Below, one piece after another: positions 3,898-19,272 of a stretch of DNA of 37,612 bases. The translations under genes and the position numbers were made by a program. Every line of letters starts with the position of its first letter. Position 1 is the stretch's first letter. The notes under the pieces were generated by a model. It worked only from the letters and a program-made list of their open reading frames with translations, searched no databases and was not told where the DNA came from. The stretch is taken from contig JACQXZ010000029.1 of assembly GCA_016208465.1 (NCBI GenBank), forward strand, positions 1 through 37,612, written 5' to 3'. The stretch is from Actinomycetota bacterium. Lineage in GTDB: Bacteria; Actinomycetota; Aquicultoria; JACQXZ01.

Positions 3898-4327
3898 TAT
3901 TCTCTCCCCTCCCTTGATGGGAGGGGATTAAGGGGAGGGTGTGTTAAAAATAATTAGTTCTTATCGCCTCTAAAACACCCTCTGTATTAGTTAAGACTTC
4001 ATTATTCCAAAACCTTAGAACTTTGAACCCCTGAATTTTAAACCATTCATCTCTTTCATTATCTTTCTCTGTCTCTTCTGAATGTTGACCACCATCCACC
4101 TCGATAATTACTTTCTTTTCAAAACAAACAAAATCAACAATATATTTTCCGATAGGCTCCTGTCTTCTGAATTTCATCCCTTCTAATTGCTTAGCTCTTA
4201 GATGTCTCCATAACAATCTTTCTGCATCAGTCAAATTCTTTCTTAATTGCTTTGTTATGTTCTTGATTTTGACATTCACATCTTAACACCCTCACCCTAA
4301 CCCTCCCCCATCAAGGGGGAGGGAAAT
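3898..4327 (-). mobile_element. DUF559 nuclease unit bounded by terminal inverted palindromes (copy 1)
   Basis: The DUF559 gene is framed by two GC-rich palindromes in inverted orientation. The left one (about 3899-3945) has core CTCCCTTGATGGGAG followed by GGGGAGGGTG-TGTTA; the right one (about 4283-4327), read on the other strand, has CCCCCTTGATGGGGG followed by TTAGGGTGAGGGTGTTA. The ends therefore match each other over about 40 bp, including the TTGATG loop. The total is about 430 bp, almost the same as the unit in hsdS (10704-11142). The surroundings are two housekeeping genes, so this looks like an inserted cassette. No target-site duplication could be recognised. Confidence 0.65.
3944..4279 (-). 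CDS. DUF559 (Vsr-like) endonuclease-domain protein
   Basis: A 111-residue protein of the DUF559 family, related to very-short-patch repair and other PD-(D/E)xK nucleases. Visible family marks are TDAERLLWRHLR near the N-terminus, KFRRQEPIGKYIVDF (about residues 36-50) with the candidate catalytic Asp in IVDF, VIIEVDGGQH (about 57-66) with the next acidic pair, then GFKVLRFWNNEVL and NTEGV at the end. The whole domain is present. The start appears to be GTG, with no strong ribosome site because the upstream end is the terminal palindrome. No cellular role is established for the family; here the gene fills the inverted-repeat unit, suggesting it acts on that unit. Confidence 0.85.
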   Translation of the reverse strand: MNVKIKNITKQLRKNLTDAERLLWRHLRAKQLEGMKFRRQEPIGKYIVDFVCFEKKVIIEVDGGQHSEETEKDNERDEWFKIQGFKVLRFWNNEVLTNTEGVLEAIRTNYF

Positions 4328-7312: not shown

Positions 7313-8725
7313 TTAATCATTCACGTTAAAATATATACTCTTCTCACTTCCATAATAAGATTCATATACATGCTGATATATCAAACCACATTTTTGATGG
7401 TATATCTTATCAGTGAATACCGGTGGCAATCCCTCAAGCATCTCCTCAATGCACAATTTTACAGCCGCGCGAGATTGTTGTTTCTTGCGCCAATCTAAAA
7501 CCAGTTTTCCTGATTTAAGTTTTTCGAGTAAATTATGAGCTATCTTTTTAATAGATATAATATCTTTTTGCGTCATTTTAAGCGGTGGATTAACCAATAA
7601 GTCAAATATAGCAAGCTCTTCTTCAGTTAAGTTCTCTGTAAGCGCCCGTTTTTCTTCTTCATTTAAGCCTTCAACAAATTCAAGTAATCGTCTGTAATAC
7701 TCTTCCACATTCATTGAACCGGCATTGTATTCGTCAATTAATTGCTGGAATTTTTCCATATAATCAATCCGTGTTTTATTAAGCATATATAAAGCATGTA
7801 ATCTAATCTCGGCTACTTTTCTTAACTGTTCAGCCGATATTCGTTTGCGTCCTTTGTTAAATTGTTCTTGCAATTTCTCAAGATCAATTTTGCTCAGATC
7901 AAGTATTCTTCTTGTCTTGTATGGTTCTCCTCGCCCCTCCAAAGAAATATGCCTTGCCTCAACTCTTACCGATTTATCCAGTAATTCCGAAATCTTTTTA
8001 AGCACATCAGAGACATCAATCATTGGAGAAATTGACCCCAATTTATCTGCCAAAACCTGCAATAACTTTACAACTGGCTGGAACTCGCTCGCAGATGTAT
8101 CAGGCAATATTGCCTTATAGATTTTCTGAATAATTGCATTTTTTTCTTTAAATACAGATTGTCGTTCTTCATTTTCCAATATACACTCAACTGCATCATC
8201 TATTAAACCAATGCATTCTAATCCTTCTGCAATGATTATTTCTGACAATAATGTTCCCCAATCATCTAGCAACTCCATCATTTCCTGAATATTCTGTCGT
8301 AAATGTTCTATTAATTCAGATTTTTCAATAATTGGCGTATCAACTCCGCCTTCTCCCGTGGAAGCCGCATAAATTGCCAATGCTTTATTCAGGTTATGAA
8401 GCACTCCAATATAATCAACTATCAATCCTACAACTTTGTGTTCGCCAAATACCCGGTTAACCCGGGCAATGGTCTGCATAAGAGTATGATTTTTCATTGG
8501 CTTATCGAGATAAATTGTAGAGCACGAGGGGACATCAAATCCCGTCATCCACATTGCACAGACAAAAACAATCCTTAAAGGATCATCTGGATCTTTGAAC
8601 TTTTCATCAAGAGATTCATTATTCATTCGCCTGCGATGCGGTGCAATATCCACTCCTTTTGTTTTTAAGTCTTCGACTTCATTCTGAGATTGCGATACCA
8701 CAACATACTGTCGCTTTATCATCAA
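7313..8725 (-). pseudogene. hsdR: hsdR C-terminal fragment (type I restriction subunit, broken)
   Basis: The 3' part of a type I restriction enzyme R subunit, 470 residues if read from the ATG at 8725. The first few residues come from out-of-frame reading of the upstream half; native HsdR sequence begins at VVVSQSQNEVEDLK. It then holds helicase motif V (VFVCAMWMTGFDVPSCSTIY), motif VI (LMQTIARVNRVF) and the long helical C-terminal domain that docks on HsdM. It overlaps the N-terminal fragment by 47 bp in another frame. Between the halves, the stretch that normally joins 'KATV' to 'VVVSQSQ' (I estimate 150-200 residues, including motif IV) is missing, so a simple frameshift cannot restore the enzyme. 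Confidence 0.85.
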
Positions 8726-10100
8726 TTGCCTGTTTAAAATTATAAATACTTACATAATCGCCAAAGACTTCTTTGGTTTTCTCTTCGCCTACAATAAGTG
8801 GTGTTCCGGTAAATGCAATAAACCCTGCCTTTGGCAAGGCATTGCGCATATTCATAGCAAATATGTCATATTGGGTTCTGTGGGCTTCGTCAGTTATAAC
8901 GACAATATCGAAACGTTCAGAAATCACCGGGTGTACTGTCTCCTTTTCTGTTCTGAATTTTTGAATAGTTGTAAAGACATAACGATGGTCTTCTTTTAGC
9001 AATCGCCTTAAATCCTCGCTTGTTTCAGCCCATTCTTGTTTTCCTTGAATAACGCCTGAACGCACAAATCGTTTATAGGTCTGCTTGTCCAGCTCGTTTC
9101 TATCGGTTACAACTACAAATGTCCAGTTACCCGGTATTTTTCTTAAAATCTTCTGTGAAAAGAAAATCATTGATTCTGTTTTCCCTGAACCCTGAGTGTG
9201 CCAGAAAACTCCGAGTCGTCCCTTATTCTTGTTCATCTGGAGAAATGCTTTTATCGCATTTTCGACTCCTAAATACTGGTGGTTTTTAGCAATAATTTTA
9301 ATGGGACCGTTTTTCTCTTCCTTAAATAAAGTGTAGTTTTCGAGAATATCCATAAACCGGGCTTTTTCACAAACGCCTCTGATAACTGTATCAAGTGAAA
9401 CAACACCTTTTTCGCCTTCATTATTAATTCGTTTCCATTCGCTGAAATAGTCCCATTCTGCAGAGATTGTCCCAACCCGGCTTTGACTGCCATTGGAAAG
9501 GATAATCACTCCGTTAAACCAGAATACCTGTGGAATGGTTGATTTATAATCCCTTAAATTCTCATCGTATGCTTTCTTAAGATTCCGATGAGATGCCTTT
9601 AACTCCATAAAAAGAAGCGGGATACCATTAATAAATCCAAGAAGGTCAATCCTTCGGGTATACATTTCCCCTGAAACCCAGAATTGTGAAGCTAAAAAGA
9701 AATCATTGTTTTCTATATTTACCCAGTCAATAACTTTTATTCGTTCTGAAACCTGTTCGTTTTTATTATTTAGGTAAGAGACAAGCGCTCCATTTTTAAG
9801 AAGGTCAAATACTTCACGGTTTGCCGAAACCATTCCCATCAAACTTCTATCAGCAGTTAGTATCTTTATTGCTTCATCAAGGACAGTTTCAGAGATGTCT
9901 GGGTTGATTTTTTTCAGTGAAGGTTTAAGTTTTGAAACCAAAACAACATCTGCTTTTGTCTCCCTGCCAAGAGAACTTTTTCCATTTTCATCAAACTCAT
10001 AAAAACAGTTCTGGACAGACCAATCAAGTTGACTGAATAATTCAATTGCCGGTTTTTCCACTAACGCAGATTCTGAATAGTCGCTATTTTTGGGCGTCAT
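8679..10100 (-). pseudogene. hsdR: hsdR N-terminal fragment (nuclease and first motor domain)
   Basis: The 5' part of HsdR, 473 residues. It holds the PD-(D/E)xK nuclease (YTRRIDLLGFINGIPLLFMELK, about residues 146-167), Walker A WHTQGSGKTES (about 301-311), the DEAH box ITDEAHRTQYD and FTGTPL (motif III). Native sequence ends at YNFKQAIDDKATV (about residue 465); eight foreign residues (CCGIAISE) and TGA follow, read from the downstream half in the wrong frame. The first motor lobe is complete but the second is separated, so ATP-driven translocation and cleavage should be lost. The ATG overlaps the stop of the hsdS C-half by 4 bp, showing it was part of the hsdM-hsdS-hsdR operon. Confidence 0.85.
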
Positions 10101-10687
10101 ACTTCCTGCTCCCTTATAGCAATCTCTAAATCGGACACATCAAGTTCACCTGAGATGAGTTTGGGAAGTAAAAGGTCTCGGGTTCTGCGGAGGTTATCGT
10201 TCTTTTTTCTCAATAAACTCATTTGATTCAATAATAATCCTACCAATTGATTGAAATGCTTTAAAGTCTGGCTTGTAGGAATAATGACTTTTTGCTCTTT
10301 TAGAAACTTAAAATGCCGCGCATATGCAAAATCCGACAGATCGATATTTTTAATAGCATAGTAAAAATAGGCGGGCATTAAATCCTCATTACTTGGATAT
10401 AATAATTGTGTTCCATCAGCCCCGCTTGCAAATGGAAAATCAACATATTTGATAATTCGAGTATGGTCCCCAAAAACGATAATTGGTAATGGATCTGAAT
10501 GTAAAGCATCAGATTCATTTGTATAACCACCTATAAATGTTGAGCTTTGATCAATAGATGGTATTGAACCTTGCTCAAGATAGTCCTCTTTCTTAATTTT
10601 TAGCTTTCGCTTTATCTTGCACAGGAGTTCTCCAACTTTTTTAACTTCCCATCCCTCGGGAATCTTGCCCAATTCTGAATTTATCAT
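10097..10687 (-). CDS. hsdS: HsdS C-terminal half (second target-recognition domain)
   Basis: A 196-residue half specificity subunit. It begins MINSELGKIPEGWEVKK, the usual start of the second HsdS repeat, has one target-recognition domain (about residues 15-140, with IVFGDHTRIIKYVDFPFASGADG typical of TRDs) and ends in the conserved helical region (LLLNQMSLLRKKNDNLRRTR..LLPKLISGEL). Reading upstream of the ATG in the same frame gives YKSSGGK, a conserved stretch of full-length HsdS, so this ORF was once joined to the N-half. It is separated from it by a DUF559 unit. Half-size HsdS proteins can pair into working specificity subunits in other systems, so DNA methylation may survive. Confidence 0.85.
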   Translation of the reverse strand: MINSELGKIPEGWEVKKVGELLCKIKRKLKIKKEDYLEQGSIPSIDQSSTFIGGYTNESDALHSDPLPIIVFGDHTRIIKYVDFPFASGADGTQLLYPSNEDLMPAYFYYAIKNIDLSDFAYARHFKFLKEQKVIIPTSQTLKHFNQLVGLLLNQMSLLRKKNDNLRRTRDLLLPKLISGELDVSDLEIAIREQEV

Positions 10688-10703: not shown

Positions 10704-11142
10704 TTATATCCCCTCCCTGATAAGGGAGGGGATAGGGTGGGTTCTCTTTTTACTCTTAACCCTCTCTGCTAAATCCAAATAAACACCTTCTGTGTTAGAT
10801 AAAACTTCACTATTTTGATAACGAATAATTTCTATACCATATTTCTTTTGCAAGATATCTGCACGCAATTCATCATATTTTTCCTGAAAGGCATGTGTGT
10901 CACCGTCAATTTCTATTCCAAGCAATAGCTCAGAACAATAAAAATCGACAATAAAATTTTCTAATGGTTTCTGACGGGTAAATTTTAATCCACCGAACTG
11001 TTTCCTTGAAAAAATTTCCCACATCTTTTTTTCTGCAACAGTTGGATTCTTGCGATTTTGACGGGCATATTCTTTCAATTTTGTGTTATAGGGAATATAT
11101 TTAACCCCCTCTAACTCCCCCTTATCAGGGGGAGAAACTGGA
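10704..11142 (-). mobile_element. DUF559 nuclease unit inserted in hsdS (copy 2)
   Basis: The insert runs between hsdS residue FEFP and the continuing hsdS codons YKSSGGKM. Its ends are inverted palindromes: left (about 10706-10745) with core CTCCCTGATAAGGGAG followed by GGGATAGGGTGGGTT; right (about 11103-11140) with CCCCCTTATCAGGGGG, which read on the other strand has the same TGATAA loop followed by AGTTAGAGGGGGTTAA. The size, about 435 bp, matches copy 1, but the loop (TGATAA versus TTGATG) and the encoded protein differ clearly. Each unit's two ends therefore match each other better than they match the other unit. Confidence 0.75.
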
Positions 11143-11645
11143 AATTCAAAATTGACAAACCACTCCTGATAAATTCTCTGTGCCATTTCTTCAAGGACTT
11201 TAATCCGACGGGTATTGTTTTCAATGAGGTCGTCGTAAGCGGAGAGGATGGAAGAAACTCTGCGCTGATCTGGTAAATCATGAATATTGACATCCAAATT
11301 GTCCAAATGATTACGGTTTAAAGTAGGCACTCCTGCACCAGCGTTGTAATTCGCTAACGGCAAAGTCCTGAGCAAATAATAAACATACCGAGGAAGATTG
11401 TCTTTGAAATCTTTAACCCACAATGATGTATTATGCGGCCAATATTTTCGAGTAATATATTGAACTGTTCCTAATGATCCACTGCGACCTGTGACTACAC
11501 CGGGAGGATTTTGTTTATACTCGTTGTGAAACCCGATGATAGACGTAGAACCCACAACAGGAAACTCACCCTCGACCATTTCTGATTTGGGTAAATCGTA
11601 TCCTCTTTGAAGAGTTACAAATTCTTTAAACTTAATTCGATTCAT
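10704..11645 (-). CDS. hsdS: HsdS N-terminal half fused to a DUF559 nuclease domain
   Basis: A 313-residue chimera. Residues 1-120 form the first target-recognition domain ([31 protein letters not shown]); 122-169 are the conserved coiled-coil spacer ([20 protein letters not shown] ... [12 protein letters not shown]). At residue 170 the sequence changes to repeat-derived [12 protein letters not shown] and then a full DUF559 domain (about 184-300: [51 protein letters not shown]). The last residues, [12 protein letters not shown], are read from the other terminal palindrome. There is no ATG for the DUF559 part, so it is probably made as a fusion. The ORF starts 6 bp after hsdM and has a poor ribosome site, so translation is likely coupled. 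Confidence 0.85.
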
Positions 11646-11651
11646 TATTGT

Positions 11652-13235
11652 TTACCTATTTAATATCTTTTGAATGTTATCAGCAATCGTACTTTCAAGT
11701 TCCTTAGATTCACTGTTAAGCACTTCCAGTTCTTCATTCAGTTCTTCAAGACGTTCTTTAAAATCAAATCCATCGCCTTCTTCATTAACTACACCCACAT
11801 ATCGTCCAGGATTTAAACTCCAGCCTTGTTCTTCAATTTCCTTCAAGGTTGCAACTTTACACAAACCAGCAATATCTTGATATTTATCTTTCGGGAATGT
11901 TTCTTTAGTAAGTTTTTCACTGCCATGTGTAATTTCAATATTCTCACCTCTATACAAACGAACAATATTGGTAATGAATTCTATTTGTTCCGGTAAAAAT
12001 TCACGATGTGCCCGGTCAGTCTGGGTGTAAATCTTACGGGCATCTATGAAAAGAACTTTATCTTTTCTGTCTGTTTCTTTCTTGCCTTTATCCAGAAACC
12101 ACAATGTGCAGGGCAGTGTAACCGTATAAAAGAAATTAGAACCAACAGCAATCATTACATCAACGGCTCTGTCTTCAATCAATTTTTTTCGCAATTCCAA
12201 TTCACTTGCCCGGGCATCGCTGGCTGAATTAGCCATAACAAATCCAGCCCGTCCTTTTTCATTTAAAGCGCTATAGAAAAGCTGAATCCAGAGATAATTA
12301 CCGTTATCCACTGAAGGCATACTAAATGGAAAACGCCTTCTGTCATTTTTAATACGCTCTTTATCAATCCTGTTTACATTAAATGGAGGATTAGCCATTA
12401 CAAAATCAAAATTGCCAACCATATCGTGCAGGTCTTCATAGTAGGAATTGCCCTGTAAAACATCACCGGAAAGACCATGAACAGCAAGGTTCATTTTGCA
12501 GAGATTAACTGTTTCTCTGGTCTTCTCCTGTCCATAAATGCTGATTTCATCAATTGCCCGTTTTTTGTGTTCTTCAACGAATTCAGCGCTCTGAACAAAC
12601 ATACCGCCTGAACCGCAAGCAGGGTCAAATATTTTTCCGTGAAACGGTTGAATCACAGAGACAATCAACTTAACAACAGAGGTGGGAGTAAAGAATTCGC
12701 CTCCCTGTGAACCCTCATTCATAGCAAATTTACCTAAGAAATATTCATAAATCTTACCAAACGCATCTCCTTCAATATCTTCAGAGATTGATGACATAAG
12801 TTTTATCAATTCAACCAAGAGGCTGTTCTTAAATCTGTTATATGTCTTTGGAAGCACACCTTTAAGGTCTTCGTTTTCACGTTCAATTGCCTTCATTGCT
12901 TCATTTATTGCTCTTCCAATGTCAGCGCCTTCAGGAAGGTTTAAAAGTTGTGAAAATCTTGCTTCATCGGGAAGATACATAACCCCGGCAGCCTGATAAT
13001 CTGTTTTACCAATCTTACGACGAGTGCTTGATTTTCCTGCCTTCGCTGAAGCTTCGGCAGACAAGTCAGAAAATATTCTCTGCTGTTTGCTAAAACGATA
13101 ATCTGCATATCTTAAAAAGATGAGACCTAAAACTGGCGGAGAGTATTCCGATGATTTTAAATCAGAATTTGCCCGTAATTCATCTGCTACGTTCCACAAT
13201 CGTTTTTCCAATTCAGCAATATGATTTTTTGCCAT
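11652..13235 (-). CDS. hsdM: Type I restriction-modification methyltransferase subunit HsdM
   Basis: A 527-residue N6-adenine DNA methyltransferase subunit. The N-terminal helical domain ([32 protein letters not shown]) is typical of HsdM. The SAM-binding motif I is [18 protein letters not shown] (about residues 198-215), preceded by [13 protein letters not shown], and the catalytic motif IV is NPPFNV (about 282-287). The C-terminal helix-rich tail ([17 protein letters not shown]) contacts HsdS. It looks complete. It is the first gene of the hsdM-hsdS-hsdR operon; GGGAG lies upstream of its ATG. With hsdR broken, the locus can at most be a methylation system, and its sequence specificity depends on the split HsdS. 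Confidence 0.95.
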
Positions 13236-17841: not shown

Positions 17842-19188
17842 TCACTCCCACTCTATCGTGCTCGGTGGCTAAAGTAAAATAGCAAATGACTGCCAAAGCG
17901 CTTTATAAAGACCTGCTCTTTTTATCTCTTCTGTCACAATTGAATCCGCTTCTCTTAAGATTTCAAGTCTTTCTTTGGTTACATCTCCGATAATTCTTAT
18001 TGCCAGACCCGGTCCGGGAAACGGCTGGCGCCAGACTATTTCTTCAGGAAGACCTAATTCTTCTCCAACAATCCTGACTTCATCCTTAAAAAGCTGACGC
18101 AAAGGTTCGATTAGTTTAAAATCATGTTTAAGAGGTATTCCGCCAACATTATGATGTGTTTTTATTTTGACCGCTTCAGAGGTTCCGCTTTCGATTACAT
18201 CCGGATAAAGTGTTCCCTGAACTAAAAATTTTGTATCTTTTTCTTTCCTTGCAAATTTCTCAAAAGTGCGAATAAACTCTTCTCCAATAATTATCCTTTT
18301 CTGCTCAGGATCTGTTATGTTTTTTAATTTATTTAAAAAATGATCCTCGGCTTTAATATGAACCAGATTAATATGAAAATGCTCTTTAAAAGTGCTTTCA
18401 ACCTGCTCGGCTTCACCTTTGCGCAATAATCCATGATCAACAAAAACACAAGTTAGTTTATCTCCAACCGCTTTATGGACTAAAACTGCCGCTACCGCTG
18501 AATCAACCCCGCCGCTTAAACCGCAAATAATTTTATTGTCACCAACAACTTTTCTAACATAGTCAACAGACTGTTCAACAATTGAAACTGTTGTCCACGA
18601 AGGAATACACTCACAGGCTTCGTAAAAAAAATTCTTTAAAATATCCATTCCTGCCGGCGTATGAATTACTTCAGGATGAAACTGGACACCGTAGAGTTTA
18701 CTTTCATTATCTTCCATTGCTGCAATTGATATATTGTGCGTATGGGCAACTGGCTTAAAGCCGGCGGGAACTTTTTTAACAGAATCGCGATGACTCATCC
18801 AGACTGTTTGGGTTAGAGGAATTTCTTTAAATAACAGTGTATCGGGATAAGCTGTTAACTCAGTTTTACCGTATTCACTTTTGCCGGTATGAACAACTTC
18901 TCCGCCTAACTGAACAGCCATAAGCTGCATACCATAACAAATTCCCAAAATCGGTATCCCTAAATTGAAAATTTCAGGATCGCAAAAAAGAGCATTTTCA
19001 GAGTAAACACTCGAAGGACCGCCGGAAAGAATTAATCCTTTGGGTTTACGCGCTTTTATTTCTTCAATAGAGGTGTTGTAAGGAATAATTTCAGAATAAA
19101 TTTTACATTCTCTTACACGCCGCGCGATTAACTGACTGTATTGAGCGCCAAAATCTAAAACTAATATAATTTGCTGATGATTACTCAT
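17842..19188 (-). pseudogene. guaA: GMP synthase with an internal C-terminal deletion
   Basis: Glutamine-hydrolysing GMP synthase (XMP + Gln + ATP to GMP). The open frame 17869-19188 encodes the class I amidotransferase ([10 protein letters not shown] nucleophile Cys, and VQFHPEV His) and the ATP pyrophosphatase ([13 protein letters not shown]-loop), then [15 protein letters not shown], and stops with TAG after [13 protein letters not shown]. Directly after TAG, in the same frame, are the codons PPSTIEWE and TGA, the exact end of GuaA. About 65 residues of the dimerisation/XMP-binding domain are therefore missing. ATG at 19188 is preferred to an in-frame GTG at 19197. Either a real deletion or an assembly error; if real, activity is probably lost. 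Confidence 0.85.
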
Positions 19189-19272
19189 ATATCTCACGCC
19201 TAGTTTGTTGTTAAGTAAATTTTTTCTTTTTACTTATATCTCAGATTAATCCCTTGTCTTGTTTGTAAACTT

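Follow-up and report, generated by a model that had tools for sequence, protein, structure and literature searches.

EcoR124I HsdR (PDB entries 2w00, 4be7, and others) combines a nuclease with twin RecA-like helicase domains. The same plan is followed by the intact HsdR of a Goldiibacteriota MAG (L001; JAGNJD010000024.1; 1,058 amino acids), which aligns with the EcoR124I subunit over residues 118 to 708 (E = 2e-35) and is the closest TIGR00348 member to the gene studied here. That gene lies in a window of 37,612 nucleotides, the whole stretch of DNA analyzed, from an Actinomycetota assembly (GCA_016208465.1, contig JACQXZ010000029.1). L001 and the window have a common hsdS-hsdR gene order, and both hsdR genes encode the domains HSDR_N, SWI2_SNF2, T1R_D3-like, and T1RH-like_C in that order, with 90% amino acid identity over residues 1 to 465. 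Unlike L001, the window hsdR is missing ~133 residues and runs in two frames; compared with EcoR124I HsdR, it is without the part matching roughly residues 474 to 600, at the start of the second helicase domain. It is an ordinary type I restriction hsdR of the TIGR00348 kind and, as assembled, a broken member of that family. As expected for the operon of a type I HsdR, hsdM, the hsdS halves, and hsdR are consecutive on the minus strand, and hsdM is complete, in agreement with an earlier sequence-only reading of the region. The features are as follows.

11652..13235, minus strand: hsdM, 527 amino acids, complete (N6_Mtase, HsdM_N)
10704..11645, minus strand: first half of hsdS (TRD1), fused in frame to a DUF559 nuclease-like domain
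10707..11134, minus strand: inserted DUF559 element, with inverted G+C-rich palindromic ends at 10707-10734 and 11115-11134
10097..10687, minus strand: second half of hsdS (TRD2), a separate ORF starting MINSELGKIPEGWEV (Methylase_S)
10100..7313, minus strand: hsdR, the whole broken gene, two ORFs in different frames
8679..10100, minus strand: hsdR N-fragment, 473 amino acids, with the HSDR_N nuclease domain and helicase domain 1
8706..8707, minus strand: hsdR join, ...GATAAAGCGACAGTA / TGTTGTGGTATCG..., from the alignment with L001; placement uncertain by a few bases
7313..8725, minus strand: hsdR C-fragment, 470 amino acids from TTG, with an ATG at 8722 (T1R_D3-like, T1RH-like_C)

Extent of the gap and selection on the hsdR fragments

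Native sequence in the N-fragment comprises residues 1 to 465, up to KATV, and is followed by eight foreign codons and a stop; past KATV, in the other frame, the sequence reads on as VVVSQSQNEVEDLK. Positions 10100..8707 aligned with L001 6001..7394 (85% nucleotide identity), and the sequence from 8706 on aligned with L001 from 7793 on (80%). By this alignment, the window hsdR lacks L001 7395-7792, a stretch of 398 nt (3 × 132 + 2), which accounts for the change of frame. The sequence-only reading had proposed an internal deletion plus a frame change instead of a simple frameshift, and alignment with a full-length HsdR confirmed both relative to L001. The motifs on either side of the break, KATV and VVVSQ, are indeed well separated in intact proteins, being 132 to 137 residues apart in four relatives; together with the L001 alignment, this spacing puts the loss at ~133 residues, so the 150 to 200 residues estimated earlier were too many.

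Profile matches for the N-fragment were HSDR_N (PF04313) at the N terminus (E = 5e-43) and SWI2_SNF2 (E = 4.5e-64), the latter stopping at position 186 (218 in intact L001). The C-fragment, which carries the remainder of helicase domain 2 with motifs V and VI plus the C-terminal domain, matched T1R_D3-like positions 86 to 156 (intact L001 begins at position 4) and T1RH-like_C (E = 5e-29). According to these profiles, SWI2_SNF2 is cut short at its end and T1R_D3-like is without its first half, so that the start of the second RecA-like domain is lost. The lost part includes GKAMVVSIDKATAVKMY, which we take to be helicase motif IV by standard assignment, and the loss of that motif had been anticipated correctly. 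With TIGR00348 (cut-off, 284.55 bits), the N-fragment scored 330 bits and spanned positions 4 to 443 of 674 and the C-fragment scored 113 bits, each alone spanning only part of the model. As assembled, hsdR does not encode a complete SF2 motor, with two RecA-like domains and motifs I to VI in one chain.

Protein and DNA searches of the assembly did not find the missing stretch elsewhere, and the DNA query recovered both flanks. No relatives of the C-fragment were found among viral contigs, and a plasmid search returned distant hsdR genes only (≤25% of the query covered, ~69 to 74% nucleotide identity).

To assess selection, we compared the codons of both fragments with those of L001 and outgroups. 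The dN/dS ratios relative to L001 were 0.060 for the N-fragment and 0.082 for the C-fragment. Replacement and silent changes numbered 9/40 (N-fragment) and 15/48 (C-fragment) on the window branch, compared with 6/37 and 11/42 on the branch of intact L001. There were no additional stops within either fragment; neither an excess of replacement changes nor further disabling lesions, either of which would mark a pseudogene, was seen. Since both fragments are under normal selection and carry no further stops, the break must be very recent if the organism has it at all. The relaxed selection on restriction suggested earlier is thus unsupported, both by the purifying selection on these fragments and by the essential genes that share the lesion, described below.

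Holes of the same kind in essential genes

A second broken gene, guaA, lies in the same window (17842..19197, minus strand; lesion at 17871-17869) and is without most of GMP_synt_C. At the break, LWQSFAILL is followed by TAG and by the eight codons of the native C terminus (PPSTIEWE), with TGA at 17844-17842. A whole-genome search for GMP_synt_C recovered only its first 21 positions, at the guaA break, and no other copy; the domain is whole in 34 of 36 genomes of the class.

We surveyed 1.13 Mb of the assembly against 1.07 Mb of a relative (G003), with reciprocal searches of ORFs against DNA. Relatives available for this genome-wide comparison were at class level, and gene names were read by eye from the reference proteins. 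Internal deletions with a frame change were found for 7 of 422 conserved queries in the assembly and for 1 of 406 in the relative (a nitronate-monooxygenase-like gene), a contrast that by itself gives p = 0.07. The surveyed deletions were 100 to 407 nt long, frame-changing, and mid-contig.

C32:12398 (L082): dnaA, 407 nt deleted
C14:12344 (L064): dnaX, 100 nt deleted
C10:6481 (L060): pheS, 113 nt deleted
C8:17371 (L058): tsaD, 193 nt deleted
C45:740 (L132): ribBA, 115 nt deleted
C54:15411 and 13645 (L141): ftsH and folP, 323 nt and 335 nt deleted

The sole copy of dnaA is missing the first 72 Bac_DnaA positions, including Walker A, in the middle of a contig; in relatives of the class, Bac_DnaA is whole or is cut mostly at contig ends. 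PheS, which is whole in nearly all relatives, is likewise cut mid-contig in this assembly. As far as protein conservation can tell, the joins in the other broken genes share little or no sequence. A cell without DnaA, DnaX, PheS, TsaD, and FtsH is not viable. Because essential genes (dnaA, dnaX, pheS, tsaD, ftsH, and guaA) are broken without spare copies, these lesions must be mainly assembly errors, and the holes in essential genes are almost certainly false joins. The argument for an artifact rests on the essential nature of the broken genes and not on the contrast of seven events with one.

Three large in-frame "deletions" were left out of the survey count. Profiles identified two of them, in pcrA and in a TPP-enzyme subunit, as inteins of the relative, and the third (R2 in L076) matches them in size and form; an intein in the V/A-ATPase A subunit of the relative produced a similar gap. 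Bare counts of gaps would therefore mislead, since inteins in a relative mimic deletions. The inteins of G003 in pcrA/uvrD, the V/A-type ATPase A subunit, and the TPP-enzyme subunit lie at L093:5750-8989, L104:12934-16380, and L110:13317-15368, and the copies of these three genes in the present genome are without inteins.

Explanations for the hsdR gap

A lesion of the same size and form is found in genes that the organism cannot lose, so the gap in hsdR is most simply another such false join, in a fragmented assembly; we put the probability of this explanation at roughly three in four. Two non-adjacent stretches, sharing little or no sequence, would have been placed end to end, omitting ~398 bases of hsdR, and the organism's own copy would probably be intact. 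The join may have arisen through a gap-closing error or from a chimeric amplified template. False joins within contigs are a recognized class of error, and co-assembly raises local misassemblies (PMC12049710); in amplification chimeras, nearby stretches are joined through short overlaps (PMC6515389). The hsdR gap resembles these errors as a putative false join inside a contig, the exact cause of which would need reads or assembly metadata. Events occurred at about 1 per 42 kb of conserved coding DNA, a rate at which 0.8 would be expected in the window, where two were seen (hsdR and guaA). The same rate gives 0.08 events expected in one hsdR, which counts against an artifact.

The strongest competitor, which we nonetheless regard as unlikely, is that a real, recent deletion inactivated hsdR and left a methyltransferase-only system with complete hsdM and with hsdS as two half-subunits. 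Loss of R with retention of M is a common fate of restriction-modification systems, and hsdS is likewise split, by an element. Interruptions also affect every one of the four type I R loci in the assembly:

C56: the window hsdR studied here
C17: split, with a loss of ~10 residues and a shift of frame
C90 (L044:2675-6640), minus strand: hsdS and hsdR fused in frame in a 1,322-amino-acid ORF; in other genomes the corresponding S-R span is longer by ~300 to 380 nt
C41 (L043), minus strand: hsdR split into ORFs of 195 and 863 amino acids

At the genome-wide rate, ~0.3 events would be expected in four such loci, and the excess has a P value of about 0.004 when three apparent deletions are counted among the four. 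Such an excess points toward true decay of the restriction genes or toward poorer assembly of genes that vary between strains. Against a real loss, however, C41 is broken differently, by insertions of small palindromic repeats; neither fragment of the window hsdR shows relaxed selection; and the same lesion is present in essential genes that cannot be lost. The split in hsdS, which had been offered as joint evidence with the hsdR break, is an event of another type, involving a DUF559 element, and the two should be considered separately.

Collapse of direct repeats at the two ends, folded together during assembly, is very improbable. Short deletions between repeats are a usual assembly error, and a collapse at this site had been raised earlier, but the ends share only ~5 nt (CAGTT) in intact L001, far below any assembly word length. 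In addition, 1 to 4 extra bases at the window join fit neither end, and the window has no long repeat at this site. The likelier candidates are a gap closed wrongly and a chimeric template. It is equally hard to credit that many genes, including essential ones and hsdR, exist in the organism, or in a large share of its chromosomes, as real deletion alleles beside uncaptured intact copies, as in a highly polyploid or decaying population. Finally, production of both fragments as separate, cooperating polypeptides is scarcely conceivable: the C-fragment has its ATG (8722) where it overlaps the N-fragment ORF, and purifying selection acts on both fragments, but the beginning of the second RecA-like domain, ~133 residues, is missing altogether and has not just been split off, and no complete motor would be possible.

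The hsdR break is therefore probably not a real feature, and a false join at this site is a caution more than a discovery. Because dnaA, pheS, guaA, and ftsH appear equally broken, "broken" defense genes and pseudogene counts in this assembly should not be read as biology before a check of the reads. Split essential genes provide a cheap internal control for claims of restriction decay in metagenome-derived genomes.

The DUF559 element in hsdS and palindromic repeats

Separate from the hsdR break, the split in hsdS looks like a true mobile insertion that left two half-HsdS proteins. The ORF of the first half matches Methylase_S over residues 5 to 152 and DUF559 over residues 189 to 294, and hsdS of L001 is continuous at the insertion point. 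In the hsdR of C41, small palindromic repeats of the PPFxKGG type are inserted in the coding sequence, some of them in frame. The hsdR of a Spirochaetota MAG (L002:3560-3800; listed coverage, 4) has a short internal deletion with a frame change ~30 residues after KATV.

DUF559 genes between inverted G+C-rich palindromes (e.g., CCCCTCCCTTATCAGGGAGGGG) were observed at 10704-11150 and 3944-4279 of the window and in L046-L049. A literature search for DUF559 with inverted repeats found no paper. The same kind of palindrome flanks the remaining DUF559 copies examined in this genome, and palindromic cores number 84 in 1.13 Mb, compared with 16 in a relative and 0 to 2 after block shuffling of the sequence. 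These observations suggest a family of mobile elements, some of whose copies are short and non-autonomous.
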